Shown here piece after piece: positions 2,770 through 51,372 of a stretch of DNA of 64,000 nt. Below the pieces are notes generated by a model that searched no databases, had not been told where the DNA came from, and worked only from the letters and a program-made list of their open reading frames with translations. How positions within the stretch are numbered: position 1 is the stretch's first letter; each line of letters begins with the position of its first letter. Source of the DNA: Nitrospirota bacterium (GTDB lineage: Bacteria; Nitrospinota_A; UBA7883); NCBI GenBank assembly GCA_024275315.1, contig JAJRZK010000002.1, positions 1 through 64,000 on the forward strand, written 5' to 3'. Position numbers and translations under genes: made by a program.

Positions 2770-2991
2770 ATCACCTCCTTGCACTAGCCTGCTGGTTATA
2801 GGAGAAGCAATCATCATGCCAAACAGCGCAACTGTATGCGCTGTATTATCAGTATGTTAAAATGCGCTTAAAAATGATTTTTCCCAGTGATCGGTTGTGG
2901 CTACAATTTACGAGAATTCCGCCCGCAAATTTTGTTATCACCATGTGTGTGTTTGACACTCCTACGTCTCGAAGAGCGATATAATCGAACA

Positions 2992-4818
2992 ATGAAAAAA
3001 CGATTCGAGCACCTGAAAGAAACCCTCTCACACCTGCCAGCCTATCCCGGGGTGTACATGATGAAGGACGAGAGAGGCTCGATTCTGTACATTGGAAAGG
3101 CCAAGTCCCTGCGCAACCGGGTTCGTTCTTATTTCCAGGAAAAAGCCGCCCACTCGCCAAGGATAACAGTCATGGTGGGCAAAGTGGACAAGATAGACAT
3201 GATTGTCACTTCATCGGAGATGGAAGCCCTGATACTTGAGGACAACCTTATAAAAAAGGAAGCTCCTCGATACAACGTCATGTTGCGTGATGACAAGAAC
3301 TATCCATACTTGAAGATCACGGCGTTTGAGAAATTCCCGAGGCTGGTTCTGGTCCGCAAAGTTCTCAAGGACGGCTCGATATATTTTGGGCCTTATGTGT
3401 CTACCAAGTCTGTTCGCATCACAATGCGCCTGATTCATAAAATTTTTCCCATACGGCAGAGCAAGGACGCGCTGGACGGCAAACCGCATCGCAGACCCTG
3501 CCTGAACCACCAGATGGGAAGATGTCTCGCCCCGTGCGCCGGCTATGTCACAGAGCGGGAGTACAGGGAGGTGGTAGACCAGGTAGTCATGTTTCTCAGG
3601 GGCCGCAACGAAAAACTGATAAAAACCCTTCATGACAAAATGATCGAAGCGTCTGGCGCGATGATATACGAGTTGGCGGCGCGATACAGAGACCAGATAG
3701 AAGCTGTCACAAGGATTAACGAGAGACAGACAATCACCGACACAGGGTTGGCCGACGAGGATGTCATAGCCACGTTTGCGCAAGATGGCCGGATGATTAT
3801 AAAAATCTTCCAGATACGCGGCGGGAAATTGAACGCTGAGCGATATTATAGATTCGACAAGCTGGACCTGGCCGACCGCGCCGAGGCGCTGGCGGCGTTT
3901 ATCCGGCAGTTCTATACAGGCGCCATGACTATCCCCGGAACCATTGTAGCGCAAGATGAGCCGGACAGCCGGACAGCGCTGGAGGATTTGCTGACGGCCA
4001 GGCGGAGCAAACGGGTGAGGATAATAGTTCCGCGAAGGGGCAGGAAAAAGAAACTGGTGGACATGGCCGAGGCCAACGCCAAGCTCCAGCACAGCGCCGA
4101 AACAAAAGCCGCAACGGGAGTGGAAGAGGCTGTTGATGAGATAAAGAACGCTTTTGATCTTTCCGAAAGGCCGATGACCATCGAGGCTTATGATATATCC
4201 AACACATCGGGAACTTCTTCGGTAGGGGCGGTGGTGGTTTTCCGCGATGGGGCGCCGTCCAGGGCGGATTACCGAAAGTACCGGATCAAATCTGTCGCCG
4301 GGACGGACGATTACGCTTCCATCGCCGAAGTGGTGGAGCGCAGGTACAGACGCATGGCTAGGAACAAAGAGCCGTTTCCCGATCTTATACTTATAGATGG
4401 CGGAAAGGGCCAGCTGAAGATTGTGCGGAAAAAATTTGACGAGCTGGGCCTGGTTGCTCCGCCGTTGGTGGGTATCGCAAAAGGTATGGACCGGGAAAAT
4501 CCCGAATCTGACGAGTTTTACCTCCCCGGACGGCCATCGCCGGTGTCACTTCCGCCATCATCACCCGGCAGGTTCCTTTTACAACGCGCCCGTGACGAGG
4601 CGCACCGGTTCGCCGTGTCCTACCACAAGAAGCTCAGGGACAAAGACGTGATCCGGTCGTCGCTGGATTCCATCCCCGGGGTCGGGCCCAAGCGAAAAAA
4701 AGCCTTGCTCCAACATTTCGGCTCGGTCAAAAAAATAAGGGAGGCGACTGTGGAACAGATATCCGGAGCTTTGCGCGTTTCGGAAAAAGTCGCCAGGAGT
4801 ATCTATGAAAACCTGTAG
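2992..4818 (+). CDS. uvrC: UvrABC excinuclease subunit C
   Basis: UvrC makes both incisions around DNA lesions in nucleotide excision repair. Visible domains in order: N-terminal GIY-YIG nuclease (PGVYMM...ILYIGKAKSLRNRV, about residues 17-95), the four-Cys CLNHQMGRCLAPC region, a UvrB-interacting UVR-like helix (about 200-240), the RNase H-like C-terminal nuclease (IEAYDISNTSG, LILIDGGKGQL, about 380-540) and a C-terminal helix-hairpin-helix (IPGVGPKRKKALL). The start at ATG 2992 fits the family N-terminus (KKRFEHLKETL); in-frame upstream codons add non-family sequence. No strong ribosome site is visible. It ends 3 bases before the convergent cyclase gene. Confidence 0.97.
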   Translation: MKKRFEHLKETLSHLPAYPGVYMMKDERGSILYIGKAKSLRNRVRSYFQEKAAHSPRITVMVGKVDKIDMIVTSSEMEALILEDNLIKKEAPRYNVMLRDDKNYPYLKITAFEKFPRLVLVRKVLKDGSIYFGPYVSTKSVRITMRLIHKIFPIRQSKDALDGKPHRRPCLNHQMGRCLAPCAGYVTEREYREVVDQVVMFLRGRNEKLIKTLHDKMIEASGAMIYELAARYRDQIEAVTRINERQTITDTGLADEDVIATFAQDGRMIIKIFQIRGGKLNAERYYRFDKLDLADRAEALAAFIRQFYTGAMTIPGTIVAQDEPDSRTALEDLLTARRSKRVRIIVPRRGRKKKLVDMAEANAKLQHSAETKAATGVEEAVDEIKNAFDLSERPMTIEAYDISNTSGTSSVGAVVVFRDGAPSRADYRKYRIKSVAGTDDYASIAEVVERRYRRMARNKEPFPDLILIDGGKGQLKIVRKKFDELGLVAPPLVGIAKGMDRENPESDEFYLPGRPSPVSLPPSSPGRFLLQRARDEAHRFAVSYHKKLRDKDVIRSSLDSIPGVGPKRKKALLQHFGSVKKIREATVEQISGALRVSEKVARSIYENL

Positions 4819-4821
4819 GGA

Positions 4822-6765
4822 TTATATTTTGGACTCTCGCCAGTCGACACTGTATATTTCGTAACGAAGCCCCTCAAGCCCCTTGAGCTCCGCCCATCCG
4901 ATTTTCTGGCAGACAATGTCCGGGTTGATCTTGATTGCGTTGTAAACTATGTAGGAGATGAGGATGCGATTTTTTTCTGGCAGAGTGGATTCGTCCGTGG
5001 CCCATGACTTAAAAGCGGATTTTTGCAATCCCTCGACCCGGCTGGCGGCGTTGATGGGAACCCCAAAACGGTCGTTGTCTTCCTTGACCTGGGTTTCGCC
5101 GAAATCTATGCCGATCCTGATATTTATAACCTTGTTGGGTTTGACGGACTTGTTGTAGTGTGAAAGTTTATTCAGGGTTTTAATGGACGTGGATATCGCG
5201 CCATCGTTATCCTCGAAAATGGCCATGAACCCGTCGCCAAGCCCTTTTTTATATACGCATCCATGCTGTTGCGCCATCTGGTCGAAAAATTTCTCGAGCG
5301 TGGTGAACATGGAGTGAAAATGGTATCCGCCGTAGGTGTGCATTATCTCTGTTGAACCGCACATGTCGATGAACATCGCGGATTCCGCTTTTATGTGGTT
5401 CATCGGTGTAGAGTCTATGGAAGGCGGTGGCTCCGGCAGTTTTGCCTTGGGATCCTTTGATTCCCTGGCTATCCTGTATTCCTCAAGGAACTTTTTATCC
5501 TTTTCCACGATATTGCTCATATCAGGACCTGCCAGCGCGATAAAAGTCTCGTAATCCTTTATGGCCTCCTCACCCCGGTCGAGCTCATATTTGACCTTTC
5601 CCCGGTTATGGTACGTTCCGGCGAAATGGGGATTTAACATTATCGCTTCGTTATAATCGTCCAGCGCCTCTTCCTTTCGCCCGAACTCGGACTTGATTCT
5701 GCCGCGATTGTGATAGGCCCTCGAAAGGCCGGGGTCGATAGAGATCGTTTTGTCATAATCGGAGATGGCCTCTTCGTGCAGGCCCAGGCTCGATTTGGCG
5801 TTGCCCCGGTTATAGTACGCTTTTGCCAGGTGCGGGTCGAAACGCAACGCCCGGTCATAGTCTTCTATGGCCTCTTGTTTGCGGCCCATGTCCGATTTGG
5901 CGTTGCCGCGGTTGTAATACGCCTGGGCGTACTTCTGGTCGAGACGCAACGCCTGGTCATAGTCTTCTATGGCCTCTTGTTTGCGGCCTAACGCGTCCTT
6001 TGCGTTGGCGCGGTTGTTATAGGCCATAGCGTACGCGGGATCGAGTTTTACAGCTTCGTCAAAATCCTTGATGGCCTCTTCCCTGCGTCCAAGATAAAAC
6101 TTTGCGGTGCCGGCGTTGTAATAAGCCAAGGCATAGGTGAGGTCGAGATGGATGGCCTTGGTGAAATCCATTATGGCCTCTTCCCGGAGGCCGATTTCGT
6201 CTTTTGCGCTTCCTCTGTTGTTATACGCCTGGGCGAAAGTGGGCGAAAGCTCTATTGCCGTGTCATAGTCCTCTATCGCTTCTCTCTTCATGCCCAGCGC
6301 CGATTTCGCCTTTCCCCTGTTGTGAAAAGCCACGACATGCCCCGGGTCAAAATGGATGGCCTCGTTGTAGTCTTCTATGGCTTTTTCCATTTGCCCAAGC
6401 TCGAACCAGGTGTTGCCGCGGTTGTTATAGGCGATCGCATAACCCGGGTCTATCCTGATGGCGTTGTCAAAATCGGCTATGGCTTCCCGCTTCCTGCCCA
6501 TGGCGGAAATGGCGTTGCCTCGGTTGTTGTATGAGGCCGCTTGATTGGGGTCGATATCTATGGCTTTGTCGAACGACTCTAACGCTTTTTCCCTTTGGCC
6601 CAGCGTGGACAGGACGCTTCCCTTGATGTTGTGCGCCTGCGCATGCCCCGGGTTGACATCTATCACTTTGTCAAGCAGTTCGATGGCTTTGTTGAATTCG
6701 CCTTTTCTGTATGAATCGACCGCTGTTTCAAAAAGCTCCCTGGTGTCTTCCCGTTCGCCGCTCAT
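4822..6765 (-). CDS. TPR protein with C-terminal class III adenylate cyclase domain
   Basis: 647 residues. Residues about 7-415 are twelve consecutive 34-residue tetratricopeptide repeats (typical unit AYNNRGNAKxxLGRKxEAIxDYDxAIxLDP). A class III cyclase homology domain follows (about 460-645). Catalytic elements are present: first metal Asp in FIDMCGSTE, KGLGDGFMAIF with the substrate-specifying Lys and second metal Asp, DRFGVPIN with the adenine-specifying Asp, and NAASR holding the transition-state Asn and Arg. This predicts an active adenylate cyclase whose input is protein binding to the TPR superhelix. No membrane segment or signal peptide is seen, so it is cytoplasmic. It is a tandem paralogue of the next gene. 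No clear Shine-Dalgarno sequence precedes ATG 6765. Confidence 0.92.
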   Translation of the reverse strand: MSGEREDTRELFETAVDSYRKGEFNKAIELLDKVIDVNPGHAQAHNIKGSVLSTLGQREKALESFDKAIDIDPNQAASYNNRGNAISAMGRKREAIADFDNAIRIDPGYAIAYNNRGNTWFELGQMEKAIEDYNEAIHFDPGHVVAFHNRGKAKSALGMKREAIEDYDTAIELSPTFAQAYNNRGSAKDEIGLREEAIMDFTKAIHLDLTYALAYYNAGTAKFYLGRREEAIKDFDEAVKLDPAYAMAYNNRANAKDALGRKQEAIEDYDQALRLDQKYAQAYYNRGNAKSDMGRKQEAIEDYDRALRFDPHLAKAYYNRGNAKSSLGLHEEAISDYDKTISIDPGLSRAYHNRGRIKSEFGRKEEALDDYNEAIMLNPHFAGTYHNRGKVKYELDRGEEAIKDYETFIALAGPDMSNIVEKDKKFLEEYRIARESKDPKAKLPEPPPSIDSTPMNHIKAESAMFIDMCGSTEIMHTYGGYHFHSMFTTLEKFFDQMAQQHGCVYKKGLGDGFMAIFEDNDGAISTSIKTLNKLSHYNKSVKPNKVINIRIGIDFGETQVKEDNDRFGVPINAASRVEGLQKSAFKSWATDESTLPEKNRILISYIVYNAIKINPDIVCQKIGWAELKGLEGLRYEIYSVDWRESKI

Positions 6766-6831
6766 ACTATTTATGTTTGTGGTCGATCATATTTACAGCG
6801 TTATCTGCCAACTAGCCATATCCTCGATGCG

Positions 6832-8808
6832 TCATTCCGCTTCCATGCTGTTTTCCCAATCTACCAGGAAGATATCATACCGCACACCCTCAAGCCCCTT
6901 GAATTCGGCCCAGCCTATTTCGGAATATTTTATGCCATGCTCGTCTTTCAGCGAATTGGAGACTATGTAGGTTATCAGTATGCGGTTTGACTCCGGGAAA
7001 TCCTCCTTGTCGACCGCAAGCGCCTTGAACGAATCGGGCCTGAGCTTTTCAATTCTGGAGGCGACATTGACAGGGATTCCGTAACGGTCATTATCCGGAG
7101 CCACTTTTGTCTCGCCAAAATCGATACCGATCCGGACATTGAGCTTCGATTTTTCCTCTGCGGTCTTATTGTACTTTTTCAATGAGTGCATTATGTTTAC
7201 AGCGGTTTTGACCGCGCCGACGCTTTCCAGAAACACAGTCATAAAACCGTCGCCCAACCCCTTCTGGTAAACGCATCCATTGCGTTCGGCTTCCTTTTTG
7301 AACAGCGTTTCAAGATAGCTGAACATGGCGAAAAAATGATATCCGCCATAAACGTTTATTATTTCCGTGGACCCCCGTATGTCCAAAAACAAAACCGCTT
7401 CCGATTTTGTCTCCGTGACCGCCTGCGCCGAGATCGACTCGGACGATTCCGACTGGATCGAGTCTGGCGCTTCAGGCAATGGCGTCATGGCGCCGGGGTC
7501 TGCTTTGGCTTTTTTGTATTCTTCCAGGAATTTCTTGTCTGCCGCCACTGTGGCTTTCATGGATTCGCCGGCCTGTTTTATGAAAACAAAATAGTCTTTC
7601 AAGGCCTCCTCTATAAGCCCAAGGTCATATTTCGCTTTTGCCCTGTTATGGTACGCGGTTAAAAAGTTCGGATCCAGCCGGATGGTTTCGCTGTAGCCTT
7701 TAATGGCCTCCTCCTTGCGTCCAAGGGAAGAGTATGCGACTGCCCTGTTGTTGTGCGCCTTGGCATAGTTTGGGTCCAGCGCTACAGCCTTGTCGTAATC
7801 CGCTATCGCTTCCTCCTTTAACCCGATGTCCGCTTTTGCGTTTCCACGATTAAAAAACGCCTGGATCATCGTTTCATCCAGCTCAATGGACTTGTCATAA
7901 TCTTTTATGGCTTCTTTCTTCAGGTCAATACTGCATTTGGCGTTGCCGCGGTTGTAATAGGCTGGTGAATAGTCTGGATCAAGGCGGATCGCTTTGCTCA
8001 AATCCTCGATCGCTTCCTCTTTTTTTCCAAGAGCCGATTTTGCGTTGGCGCGGTTGTTATACGCCTGGACAAGGCTGGGATAAATATTGACCGCCTTATC
8101 GTAATCACGAATCGATTTTTCAATATCCCCAAAGGAAAATTCCACGTTGGCGCGGTTATAATAAGCTATGGCATACTTCGGATCCAGCCGAAGCGCCTCG
8201 TTGTAATCTGCGAGCGCTTCGGACTTCAGCCCGAGATCCTCTTTGGCGCTCCCCCTGTTGCTATAAGACCTGGATAATGTCGGGTCCAGGCGGATGGCGC
8301 AATCGTAATCCTTGATGGCTTCTTTTTTGAGCCCAAGCGCTGATTTTGCGCTGGCCCTGTTATGAAACGCCACCGGAAACTTCGAATTGTAATATATGGC
8401 CTTGTCATAATCCTGTATCGCTTCTTTTTTTCTTCCCAATGCGAATTTTGCGTTACCACGATTGTTGTAAGCGAGGGCGTATTTGGGATCGAGTCCGATG
8501 GCTCTGCTGAAATCCTCTATGGCTTCTTCCTTGTGCCCAAGCGCCGATTTTGCGTTGCCTCGGTTGTTATAGGCGGCGGAGTCCTCAGGGTTTAGCCGGA
8601 TGGCATGGTCAAAGTCGGCTATGGCCTTTTCCCTGCGTCCCAGATTGGAATAAATACTGCCTCGAATACTGTACGCGGAAGCGTGGTCGGGGTTGGCCCG
8701 CAAAACCTCTGAAAAGCATTCAACCGCTTTTTTAAGGTGGCCCTTTTTATAAAGACTAACCCCTTCTTCGAAATATTTTTTTACATTCTTTCTGCTAGAA
8801 TGAGACAT
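6832..8808 (-). CDS. TPR protein with C-terminal class III adenylate cyclase domain (paralogue)
   Basis: 658 residues with the same plan as its downstream neighbour: twelve TPR units (about residues 8-420), an acidic/Ser-rich linker, then a class III cyclase domain (about 470-650). Conserved residues: FLDIRGSTE (metal Asp), KGLGDGFMTVF (Lys plus metal Asp), DRYGIPVN (Asp) and NVASR (Asn, Arg). All catalytic positions of an adenylate cyclase are therefore retained. The 66-base gap to the downstream paralogue and shared orientation suggest co-transcription. No ribosome site is visible before ATG 8808. Its TPR sequences differ considerably from those of the paralogue, so the gene duplication is not recent and the two may read different partners. 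Confidence 0.92.
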   Translation of the reverse strand: MSHSSRKNVKKYFEEGVSLYKKGHLKKAVECFSEVLRANPDHASAYSIRGSIYSNLGRREKAIADFDHAIRLNPEDSAAYNNRGNAKSALGHKEEAIEDFSRAIGLDPKYALAYNNRGNAKFALGRKKEAIQDYDKAIYYNSKFPVAFHNRASAKSALGLKKEAIKDYDCAIRLDPTLSRSYSNRGSAKEDLGLKSEALADYNEALRLDPKYAIAYYNRANVEFSFGDIEKSIRDYDKAVNIYPSLVQAYNNRANAKSALGKKEEAIEDLSKAIRLDPDYSPAYYNRGNAKCSIDLKKEAIKDYDKSIELDETMIQAFFNRGNAKADIGLKEEAIADYDKAVALDPNYAKAHNNRAVAYSSLGRKEEAIKGYSETIRLDPNFLTAYHNRAKAKYDLGLIEEALKDYFVFIKQAGESMKATVAADKKFLEEYKKAKADPGAMTPLPEAPDSIQSESSESISAQAVTETKSEAVLFLDIRGSTEIINVYGGYHFFAMFSYLETLFKKEAERNGCVYQKGLGDGFMTVFLESVGAVKTAVNIMHSLKKYNKTAEEKSKLNVRIGIDFGETKVAPDNDRYGIPVNVASRIEKLRPDSFKALAVDKEDFPESNRILITYIVSNSLKDEHGIKYSEIGWAEFKGLEGVRYDIFLVDWENSMEAE

Positions 8809-8886: not shown

Positions 8887-9633
8887 ATGTCCGATACACG
8901 AAATCTTTTCGAGGACGCTCTCGTCAGTCAACTTGCAGAGCGTTTGGGAAAGCGGTTGCATCTTACCTTGACTGATAACACCAGGACGATGATCACCGTC
9001 CGGTCGTCCGGGGGCAAGCTTTATGTCAGGCTTTCACGGATTTTCGCCCTGGCGAGCCAGGAGCTGACAGAGGACCTGATAGATTTTGTAACCGGTAAAT
9101 CAAAGGCATTGTCGAATAATCTTAAGATATTCCTAGACACGACACCGCTCCATCCGGAAGCCCGGCGCGTAAACCGCCAAAAGTTGAAAACCGCCGGAAC
9201 CTATTTTAATTTGCGCTCCATCGCCAGCGACATAAACCGGAAGTATTTCGATCCCCCTGTCAAAGCCAGGCTCACATGGGGACGGTCCAGAAGATCCAAA
9301 CCGTCTCGCCGGCGTCACTCCATACAGTATGGCTCCTATGACGAACACGCAGACCTTATCCGGATAAATCCAGTTCTGGATTCGAGCGTTGTCCCAACGG
9401 AATTTATAGAGCTTGTCGTGTACCACGAAATGCTTCATAAAAAGCTTGGGTTCGATCGTAATTCCAATGGGCGGCGCTCGTTGCACCCCCCGGAATTCAG
9501 GCGGATGGAAAGAGAATACGAGAGATATGAGTTCGCTGTGGAGTGGGAGCGAAAGAATTTCCCCGAACTGATCCGCATGGCGAAACTATCAGCCCCGAAA
9601 ACATCCCGCCCGCCTGTCAACCTGTGGCCATGA
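8887..9633 (+). CDS. SprT-like zinc metalloprotease
   Basis: 248 residues. The C-terminal half carries VVYHEMLHKKLGF, an HExxH zinc and catalytic motif, followed about 22 residues later by HPPEFRRMEREY with a likely third zinc ligand His. This spacing resembles SprT/Spartan-type and related peptidases. No signal peptide, so cytoplasmic. The N-terminal half (about residues 1-100) is Arg/Lys-rich and unassigned. In Spartan proteins this fold degrades DNA-crosslinked proteins; with uvrC and nth close by, a repair role is plausible but only inferred from position. nth follows 37 bases downstream on the same strand. Confidence 0.75.
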   Translation: MSDTRNLFEDALVSQLAERLGKRLHLTLTDNTRTMITVRSSGGKLYVRLSRIFALASQELTEDLIDFVTGKSKALSNNLKIFLDTTPLHPEARRVNRQKLKTAGTYFNLRSIASDINRKYFDPPVKARLTWGRSRRSKPSRRRHSIQYGSYDEHADLIRINPVLDSSVVPTEFIELVVYHEMLHKKLGFDRNSNGRRSLHPPEFRRMEREYERYEFAVEWERKNFPELIRMAKLSAPKTSRPPVNLWP

Positions 9634-9670: not shown

Positions 9671-10351
9671 GTGAGTTTGAGTAAAAATGGAATAGTCGAT
9701 TTTGATATCGATCACGCGGTAAGAGTACTGCGAAAGGAGGTTAAACATTGGAAGGAGCCTGTTGTAACCACCTACAGCCGAGCGACAACCCGGCCCGCTT
9801 TTCACGTGTTGATAAGTTGTCTTCTGTCACTTCGCACAAGAGACGAGCAGACCGCCGCCGCTTCCAAACGGCTTTTCGCTGTGGCGGACACTCCGGCCAC
9901 CATCGTAGCTTTGCCGACCAAACAGGTGGAAAAGCTCATTTATCCAGTGGGGTTTTACAGGAATAAAGCCGTCACCATAAAACAGGTATGCCAAGCGCTG
10001 ATAGATCATTACAATGGCGCAACGCCCGATACCATCGAAGAGTTGACAAAACTAAATGGAGTGGGACGCAAGACCGCGAACCTTGTCGTGACGCTGGGGT
10101 ACGGAAAACCAGGGATATGTGTTGACACCCATGTCCACCGGATTTGCAACATCTGGGGCTATGTAAATGAAAAGACACCGGACAAAACCGAAATGGCGCT
10201 ACGTAAACGCCTGCCCAAAAAGTATTGGATAGAGTTTAATGATTTGTTGGTTACCTTTGGGCAAAACCTGTGCAAGCCGGTCTCGCCACTTTGCTCAAAA
10301 TGCAAACTTGAGGATTCATGCCCCCAAAATGGGGTGAGTAAATCGAGATAA
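9671..10351 (+). CDS. nth: Endonuclease III (DNA glycosylase/AP lyase)
   Basis: Base-excision repair enzyme that removes oxidised pyrimidines and cleaves the abasic site. The helix-hairpin-helix LNGVGRKTAN carries the catalytic Lys, and VDTHVHRI carries the catalytic Asp. The C-terminus has the [4Fe-4S] cluster ligands in exact family spacing C-x6-C-x2-C-x5-C (from LCKPVSPLC onward). Length 226 is slightly above the usual ~211. The start is GTG at 9671 or TTG at 9677; GAGGTGAG lies so close that it may serve either. I kept the longer form. Confidence 0.95.
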   Translation: MSLSKNGIVDFDIDHAVRVLRKEVKHWKEPVVTTYSRATTRPAFHVLISCLLSLRTRDEQTAAASKRLFAVADTPATIVALPTKQVEKLIYPVGFYRNKAVTIKQVCQALIDHYNGATPDTIEELTKLNGVGRKTANLVVTLGYGKPGICVDTHVHRICNIWGYVNEKTPDKTEMALRKRLPKKYWIEFNDLLVTFGQNLCKPVSPLCSKCKLEDSCPQNGVSKSR

Positions 10352-10536: not shown

Positions 10537-10613
<77 letters not shown>

Positions 10614-10801
10614 ATTCCGCCGTGCCCCTTCGTCTATGGCGCGTCGCATCTCCCGGGATGGTATATTTTACCTGGTTCATGTTCCGGCTGGGGTGAAGCG
10701 ATCCATTAAATAAAAAATCACAATGTGATCCCGAAGTGTTTTCACAAATCATCCGAATCTGTTTGCAAAAAGAAAATTTGATTGAAAAACAGTGAATTTT
10801 C

Positions 10802-11032
10802 CTAAAATGCGACTTTTTTTTCATAGGACTCGATAGAATCCCGGCTGACACGGTAGACTCCCCTTATCTTCAGGCCTGTAAGCTGTCCTTCATCTATTAA
10901 ACGAATAACCGTCGGCGCGCTAACTCCCCATCTTCCTGCGATTTGCGATATCGTAAGATATTTTCGTTTCGCAGGTTTCAGGCTCTCTATCTGAACACTT
11001 GGCAGGATTATCGGGGCTTTTTTTTTGTACAT
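10802..11032 (-). CDS. Small HTH DNA-binding protein (excisionase/MerR-like)
   Basis: 76 residues from ATG 11032 (preceded by AAGGAG about 11 bases upstream). The C-terminal ~55 residues form a winged-helix of the excisionase/HTH_17 type: YLTISQIAGRWGVSAPTVIRLIDEGQLTG is the helix-turn-helix and GVYRVSRDSIESYEKK the wing plus last helix. Such proteins are DNA-bending excision factors or small regulators. It is transcribed divergently from the S24-family repressor at 11140, from promoters that overlap, so the two probably form one switch. No integrase is adjacent, which makes a pure excisionase role less certain. Confidence 0.8.
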   Translation of the reverse strand: MYKKKAPIILPSVQIESLKPAKRKYLTISQIAGRWGVSAPTVIRLIDEGQLTGLKIRGVYRVSRDSIESYEKKVAF

Positions 11033-11067
11033 TTCGCCAAAATCTCCTTCACATAACCAGATTACCA

Positions 11068-11096
11068 TTGCCAAATCCCACACGCACGCCTACAAT
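11068..11096 (+). promoter_or_regulatory. Rightward promoter of S24 repressor
   Basis: TTGCCA (11068-11073), 17-base spacer, TACAAT (11091-11096). Transcription would begin near 11103, at the edge of the palindromic operator. Its -10 box overlaps the -10 box of the leftward promoter by two bases. Confidence 0.75.
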
Positions 11097-11124
11097 AATA
11101 TTTAACATATATGTTCAATGTCAA
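11095..11124 (-). promoter_or_regulatory. Leftward promoter of HTH gene
   Basis: Read on the minus strand: TTGACA (11124-11119), 18-base spacer, TATTAT (11100-11095). The spacer contains the palindrome at 11104-11115, so a bound repressor would cover this promoter. Confidence 0.7.
11104..11115. promoter_or_regulatory. Candidate repressor operator (palindrome)
   Basis: AACATATATGTT is a perfect 12-base palindrome. The extended half TTTAACATAT recurs at 11132-11141, overlapping the repressor start codon. The site sits at +1 of the rightward promoter and inside the leftward promoter spacer. The repressor at 11140 is the obvious binder (inference). Confidence 0.6.
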
Positions 11125-11139
11125 GATATTATTTAACAT

Positions 11140-11862
11140 ATGAGAAAAAAAGAAACCATCGACCCGATCGCTGTCGGAAAAAGGATCAAGGATATTCGGG
11201 GCGGCAGGACATTACACGAGTTCGCAAAACTAATCGGCGTATCGCACATGTCTGTAAAGCGGTACGAGGAGGGGACCCTGCCGGACATAAACACCATGAT
11301 GGCCATAGCCAAGGTGGGCAAGGAAGATCTTGGCAGGCTCCTCCTTGGCAAGCCGCTTCCCGCGGATGTGCGGGACCAGCGTCCGCTAAAGTTCATCATA
11401 GATTCCCCGGACAAGGCCAGGTCAGGCTGGCCAAACGAGGCGGACTACATTACAGTGCCTCTCACGGCGGGAACCATAGCCGCGGGAAGCCCCAGGATAA
11501 CCGAGGATGATGTCATCGATTATTTTTTGATCCATTTGAGAGCCATAAAAAAATCCGGGGCGTCACGCAATCTTATCTCGTGCCGGCTGGAGGGGGATTC
11601 CATGCTTCCCCACCTTTGCTCCGGAGACATTGTCGTCATAGACAGGGGGATAGACAAGGAAAAGCTGGATGAAAACAAGATATACGCGATTTTTGAAGAT
11701 GGAGGAATTACCGCCAAGAAAATCCAGAAGGAGGGGTATCACCTGTACCTCATACCAACCAACCACTCCGAGCGGGTGCGGCACATAGACCTGCGGGAAA
11801 ACGACAGCCCCATTGTCGGCCTGGTGATAGGCGCCTGGAGAAATTTCGACCTGGGGGCATAG
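11140..11862 (+). CDS. XRE-family repressor with S24 (CI/LexA-like) self-cleavage domain
   Basis: 240 residues. An N-terminal XRE helix-turn-helix (about residues 10-65, TLHEFAKLIGVSHMSVKRYEEG) is followed by an S24 peptidase domain (about 105-235). The expected Ala-Gly scissile site is in GTIAAGSP, the catalytic Ser in LEGDSMLP and the catalytic Lys in ITAKKI. This is the architecture of phage CI-type repressors that cleave themselves when RecA is activated by DNA damage. The protein probably represses the divergent HTH gene and its own promoter. It may be a captured phage regulator or a host SOS-like regulator; no other phage gene is present. Confidence 0.88.
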   Translation: MRKKETIDPIAVGKRIKDIRGGRTLHEFAKLIGVSHMSVKRYEEGTLPDINTMMAIAKVGKEDLGRLLLGKPLPADVRDQRPLKFIIDSPDKARSGWPNEADYITVPLTAGTIAAGSPRITEDDVIDYFLIHLRAIKKSGASRNLISCRLEGDSMLPHLCSGDIVVIDRGIDKEKLDENKIYAIFEDGGITAKKIQKEGYHLYLIPTNHSERVRHIDLRENDSPIVGLVIGAWRNFDLGA

Positions 11863-24253: not shown

Positions 24254-24718
24254 ATGAAAGTTGGCGACGAGGATAAATCCAAGTGGTTGGCGTTGTTAAG
24301 AGGTGTGAAATTCTTTAACGAGTTTGACAACGCAGACCTCGACAGCCTGCTTAGCTCCGGAGAGATCGCCCATTACAAGTTCCACGATTACGTGGTAAAG
24401 GAAAACGATGTGGATTTCTCTTTCTTCGTCATTCTCAAAGGGTCGGTAAAAATAATCAAGTTCGGGCCGTTGCGCGAAAGAAAAGAGATCGGAAGCCTGA
24501 ACAACGGAGACTGTTTCGGAGAGATGGGGCTCTTGTTGCGCCACGGCAGAACAGCAAGTATTCTGGCTTCCGGTGATTGTTATATCTTCAAGCTGAACGT
24601 ACAGGATTTAGACTCCATGGAGCTGTCCACCCAGGTCAAGCTATACAGAAAATTCGCGGAGGAACTGGCGGAAAAGCTGAAACTCACCACCGACCAGATA
24701 ATCCGCCCTACTCTTTAA
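24254..24718 (+). CDS. Cyclic nucleotide-binding domain protein (single CAP_ED domain)
   Basis: 154 residues, all one CRP-type cyclic nucleotide-binding domain (about residues 15-135) with no DNA-binding domain. FFVILKGSVKI is the beta-roll core, and the phosphate-binding cassette is FGEMGLLLRHGRTASILAS, with Gly-Glu and the Arg that contacts the cyclic phosphate. It could sense cAMP or cGMP, for example from the two cyclases at 4.8-8.8 kb, and signal by protein contact; that link is inference. Its 3' end overlaps convergent tilS by 11 bases. Confidence 0.85.
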   Translation: MKVGDEDKSKWLALLRGVKFFNEFDNADLDSLLSSGEIAHYKFHDYVVKENDVDFSFFVILKGSVKIIKFGPLRERKEIGSLNNGDCFGEMGLLLRHGRTASILASGDCYIFKLNVQDLDSMELSTQVKLYRKFAEELAEKLKLTTDQIIRPTL

Positions 24719-51277: not shown

Positions 51278-51372
51278 GGAAGATGAACGCGCCCGGTGGC
51301 GCGGCTGGACTTCAAATCCAGACAGGGGCTTGATAAGTCCCGGGAGGGTTCGACTCCCTTCATCTTCCGCCA
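51278..51372 (+). tRNA. selC: tRNA-Sec (TCA), selenocysteine
   Basis: 95 bases with encoded CCA. The acceptor stem has 8 pairs (GGAAGATG/CATCTTCC) and the discriminator is G73. Anticodon loop CTTCAAA with anticodon TCA; long variable arm (GGGGCTTGATAAGTCCC); T-arm GGGTTCGACTCCC. The anticodon arm GGCTGGACTTCAAATCCAG and overall length equal those of the E. coli selC product. Reads UGA as selenocysteine with SelA, SelB and SelD. Confidence 0.97.

Follow-up and report, generated by a model that had tools for sequence, protein, structure and literature searches.

The combination of a class III cyclase domain and TPRs in one protein is already known. XC_0250 from Xanthomonas campestris has an N-terminal class III cyclase domain together with three stretches annotated as TPRs. 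Its product is cGMP, and it is linked to an effector with a cNMP-binding domain (PMC3770947). The two proteins described here are encoded by adjacent genes, A and B, in a stretch of 64,000 nucleotides (the window), and they also join a class III cyclase domain to TPRs. However, neither follows the XC_0250 type, an N-terminal cyclase followed by TPRs with GTP specificity, being the cyclase domain C-terminal, the repeats twelve in number, and the purine-specifying residues a Lys/Asp pair of the adenylate type. Their design thus differs in domain order, substrate residues, and number of repeats. A candidate from S. meliloti proved not to be a TPR cyclase, and no mention of TPRs was found in the accessible part of an actinobacterial survey.

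A second comparison is offered by cyclases with HEAT repeats, which belong to the same clade of cyclase domains, recognizable by the Arg that follows the specificity Asp (D-R-x-G), and also have an N-terminal alpha-solenoid. In this case, the solenoid is formed by HEAT repeats and not by TPRs, the identity with A and B is ~30-35%, and the genes stand at another locus; no family name was found for these HEAT-repeat cyclases. Within the D-R-x-G clade, HEAT repeats occur in Nitrospinota, Nitrospirota, Desulfobacterota, and others, diverged TPRs in Scalindua and its relatives, and FHA domains in Spirochaetales. The window's own genome encodes one HEAT-repeat cyclase of this clade (G000:C17:78311-78847; L008, L056), whose relatives from several phyla have HEAT, diverged TPR, FHA, or kinase plus FHA partners.

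For the separate parts of A and B, other likenesses are available. By profile and fold, the mycobacterial class III adenylyl cyclases Ma1120 and Rv1900c are among the closest solved cyclase domains and share a short arm with A and B, although the identity is 22-24% and neither matches the TPR superhelix. On the other hand, the predicted superhelix of the arm and its asparagine ladder resemble those of O-GlcNAc transferase (OGT), an enzyme with a different catalytic domain and no common function, so that only the arm is alike. We consider it probable that A and B are soluble adenylate cyclases of the class IIIc type, in which the cAMP output is controlled by a protein or peptide bound to the TPR superhelix. 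If active, they would be soluble, protein-binding-controlled sources of cAMP in an environmental phylum whose genomes in this analysis come mostly from metagenomes.

The gene pair and its cyclase domains

Table 1. Position of the features considered in the window.
Feature	Position	Strand	Description
uvrC (presumed; named from sequence)	2887-4818	+	convergent with gene B
Gene B (P0001)	4822-6765	-	647 aa; twelve TPRs (residues 8-415), capping helix (414-435), linker (436-458), class III cyclase domain (459-640)
Cyclase domain stretch of gene B	4825-5415	-	AlphaFold pLDDT 94.7, pTM 0.90; top PDB match 1ybt (Rv1900c cyclase domain)
Gap between A and B	6766-6831	-	66 bp
Gene A (P0002)	6832-8808	-	658 aa; twelve TPRs (residues 9-416), linker, class III cyclase domain (~464-655)
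Cyclase domain stretch of gene A	6835-7437	-	aligned with the family; contains D, K, D, D, N, R
SprT-like protein gene	8887-9633	+	divergent, conserved neighbour; Pfam match slightly under the cut-off
nth-like (HhH-GPD) DNA glycosylase gene	9671-10351	+	conserved neighbour
tRNA-Met, excisionase-like ORF, LexA-like repressor ORF	10537-11862		excisionase-like ORF short and on the minus strand
ORF with cNMP-binding domain	24371-24619		166-aa open frame
tRNA-SeC	51278-51372		ARAGORN prediction

Both open reading frames lie exactly at the span (4822-8808) where a preliminary description, made from the sequence alone, had placed a tandem pair of cyclase genes. Gene A is upstream of gene B in transcription order, and no minus-strand terminator-like site was found in the gap between them; therefore, co-transcription of A and then B is likely. 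A promoter scan gave no site 5' of gene A, and the total for the region was not above that of the shuffles.

The Pfam profile PF00211 matches each protein with 36.4 bits (E ~5e-9), above its gathering cut-off of 21.9 bits and well outside chance, which assigns both to class III. The match ends at position 138 of the 183 of the profile, being the C-terminal part divergent, yet folded in the model. The catalytic motifs read FLDIR, QKGLGD, and NDRYG...VNVASR in A and FIDMC, KKGLGD, and NDRFG...INAASR in B, and in the alignment with relatives the six catalytic positions of both proteins are D, K, D, D, N, and R, including the two metal Asp and the transition-state Asn and Arg that define the class. 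The claim that every catalytic residue is intact is thus confirmed in A and B. According to the adenylate specificity rule, a Lys/Asp pair occupies the purine-specifying positions (PMC4215837), and this pair is found in both proteins. Sequence and model then favor the earlier assignment to adenylate and not guanylate cyclases, and A and B would produce cAMP.

In a profile search, the crystallised adenylyl cyclase Ma1120, which has the same Lys/Asp pair, ranks first (E 2.5e-19). The confident model of the B cyclase domain, a monomer built on 46 relatives, finds Rv1900c, a rhodopsin-guanylyl cyclase core, CyaC, and Ma1120 as its top PDB matches; for the domains of Rv1900c and Ma1120, the probability of the match is 1.00 and the TM score is ~0.74 when normalised to the length of the query and 0.86-0.89 when normalised to that of the target. 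Regarding the subclass, class IIIc is defined by a 7-residue arm (M. phlei paper, PMC4626032). The distance from the strand Gly to the specificity Asp in A and B is ~1 residue longer than in Ma1120 in the profile alignment, and this short arm, counted by eye and with no subclass model, suggests the class IIIc type.

An alternative reading of these domains is that A and B are TPR scaffold proteins, in which the cyclase domain acts as a nucleotide sensor or structural element with little catalysis. TPR arrays often serve as scaffolds, and changes of the Asn (to Thr or Val) or of the Asp are seen in some relatives. However, the six positions are intact not only in A and B but also in most TPR-type relatives, and every relative scored over the whole domain keeps both metal Asp, the Lys, and the Arg. 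Moreover, Ma1120, with Ala where A and B have Asn, is still an active cyclase (PMC4215837), so the loss of the Asn alone need not mean inactivity. A mainly structural role of the cyclase domain is therefore very unlikely.

No membrane segment is predicted in A or B with 19-residue Kyte-Doolittle windows, being the highest means 1.27 and 1.29 in the two proteins. This part of the preliminary description holds, but the contrast that it drew with many other class III cyclases is not special here. For example, of the eight PF00211 matches in the genome, three are combined with CHASE2 and the others with a receiver domain (REC, one), FHA (one), HEAT (one), and TPRs (two). Only the CHASE2 cyclases are of the membrane type; with five of the eight lacking this domain, a soluble cyclase is not unusual in this genome.

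The TPR arm

Pfam TPR families match both proteins with E-values down to 1e-91 and 4e-89, and the repeats start exactly 34 residues apart (residues 8 to 382 in B and 9 to 383 in A), in full agreement with the twelve TPRs per protein counted beforehand. The AlphaFold model of full-length B, a monomer built on 15 aligned relatives and confident overall (mean pLDDT 91.1, pTM 0.75), comprises 24 TPR helices and the capping helix, followed by the linker and the cyclase fold; given the pTM, the orientation of the TPR part relative to the cyclase domain is uncertain. All full-length relatives of the twelve-repeat type have exactly twelve repeats, and same-numbered repeats from different proteins are 51% alike as compared with 41% for other repeats. 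This indicates that, as judged from these sequences, both repeat number and register are fixed in the twelve-TPR type.

The top match of the TPR model is the superhelix of OGT (PDB code: 1w3b; E 6e-22, TM 0.84 by target length), where an N6 asparagine ladder binds the backbone of the substrate or peptide (PMC5967971). The same ladder on helix A is present in A and B alike, with Asn at position 6 in 10 of the 12 repeats (repeats 3-12), and six relatives have kept it almost unaltered. TPRs that are rich in Asn and follow this consensus are widespread in bacteria, so the ladder may reflect the repeat family rather than peptide binding. Among the NCBIfam models, TIGR04510 (putative peptide modification system cyclase) matches both proteins, but the match is confined to the TPR part and reaches 65-67 of 400 bits, far under the cut-off. 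TPR_END_plus passes its cut-off and LcrH_SycD does so marginally in B, both on the repeats alone, whereas TOM70, MamA, PilW, and most other matches were discarded as generic TPR hits far under the cut-off.

In the mechanism that we propose, the N-terminal twelve-TPR superhelix would be the input arm, and an extended peptide or protein partner would bind along an asparagine-lined groove resembling that of OGT. Binding would alter the pairing of two C-terminal cyclase domains and in this way set the rate of conversion of ATP to cAMP, which the CRP/cNMP-domain proteins of the genome would then read.

Relatives and divergence of the pair

A and B are 52% identical in the cyclase domain, and the value for the whole alignment is the same, as expected for the diverged paralogues that they had been taken to be. 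Named matches place this cyclase family in Nitrospinota, the phylum of the source genome. A domain of this cyclase clade is found in 20 of the 24 genomes of the phylum (the window's own included), some of them having the HEAT type only, and the twelve-repeat type occurs in G000 (the window's genome), G001, G008, G009, and G010. Orthologues of A and B in unchanged order are present in G001, which belongs to the same family but to another genus. The search for further genomes with the tandem pair, proposed in the preliminary description, gave adjacent pairs in three of the 24 genomes of the phylum, some of which are incomplete; the duplication is therefore not essential. Another family has mostly relatives with eight or nine TPRs and one with fourteen repeats.

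The pair would derive from a tandem duplication in an ancestor of at least two genera, after which the copies diverged, possibly for different partners. The A clade has a tree support of 99/99 but the position of B is poorly resolved, and the overall support for the timing of duplications is moderate. In G010, from another family, two adjacent copies both group with the single gene of G009 (support 91/92), so this pair looks like a separate duplication. In the second G010 copy (L040:5086-7086), Glu stands in place of the specificity Asp and Val in place of the Asn, a possible case of one-sided decay.

The fixed order of adjacent paralogues in two genera could also mean that the two proteins assemble into a heterodimeric cyclase, as the mammalian C1/C2 halves do, each one needing the other. 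Class III enzymes require a dimer, and the G010 copy that lost the Asp and the Asn kept both metal Asp, the Lys, and the Arg, as if one site were dispensable. Nonetheless, A and B have all six residues each, and either one could homodimerise with two sites. Also, an A-type gene stands alone in G003, where it is cut by the contig start and followed directly by uvrC without B, and G002, G005, and G006 have alone a B-like gene, a six-TPR relative on the B side of the domain tree. An obligate heterodimer is thus unlikely.

As for the proposed control by protein binding, A and B had been suggested to couple possibly different protein partners to cAMP. Between orthologues from the two genera, 67-70% of the TPR residues lining the groove are identical; between paralogues, the value is 45-50%. 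The remaining repeat positions show a similar but smaller drop, from 48-57% to 38-45%, so general divergence could explain the difference in the groove. Different partners for A and B are plausible from these sequences, the data being only consistent with them. Among close relatives, the conserved locus holds the pair, one copy, or none, a natural series that would allow the division of work between duplicated cyclases to be studied.

Neighbouring genes and possible cAMP signalling

The twelve-TPR and six-TPR genes adjoin a divergent SprT-like gene with nth nearby, and this cyclase - sprT - nth order recurs across several families of the order. In the window (G000), G003, and G010, uvrC is found downstream. 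This arrangement could indicate that the cyclases work with their SprT-like, Nth, and UvrC neighbours and that cAMP is tied to DNA damage or DNA-protein crosslinks. However, sprT and nth remain together in G007 and G011, which lack the TPR cyclase; in G007 (four contigs), its place is taken by an ORF that, from the start of its sequence, we take to be UvrA-like. Moreover, eight-TPR relatives of another family occupy other neighbourhoods, and a retained chromosomal position suffices as an explanation, which makes a functional link with repair extremely improbable. A combined version, where A and B would be a regulated heterodimer whose two OGT-like superhelices with asparagine ladders clamp the same or two different unfolded polypeptides and whose cAMP reports a specific client, perhaps linked to SprT, Nth, or UvrC, is highly improbable.

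Other genes were noted around these loci. In three relatives (L041, L043, and L046), a gene for a GAF and sigma-54 activator is found a few genes away from that of the cyclase. In the window, the tRNA-Met, the excisionase-like ORF, and the LexA-like ORF (Table 1) may be, in a reading by eye, the remnant of an integrated element.

With its eight PF00211 matches and 21 matches to cNMP-binding domains, cAMP signalling is plausible in this genome. The ORF with a cNMP-binding domain within the window is a possible reader of cAMP. Finally, the predicted tRNA-SeC makes selenoproteins possible in this genome.
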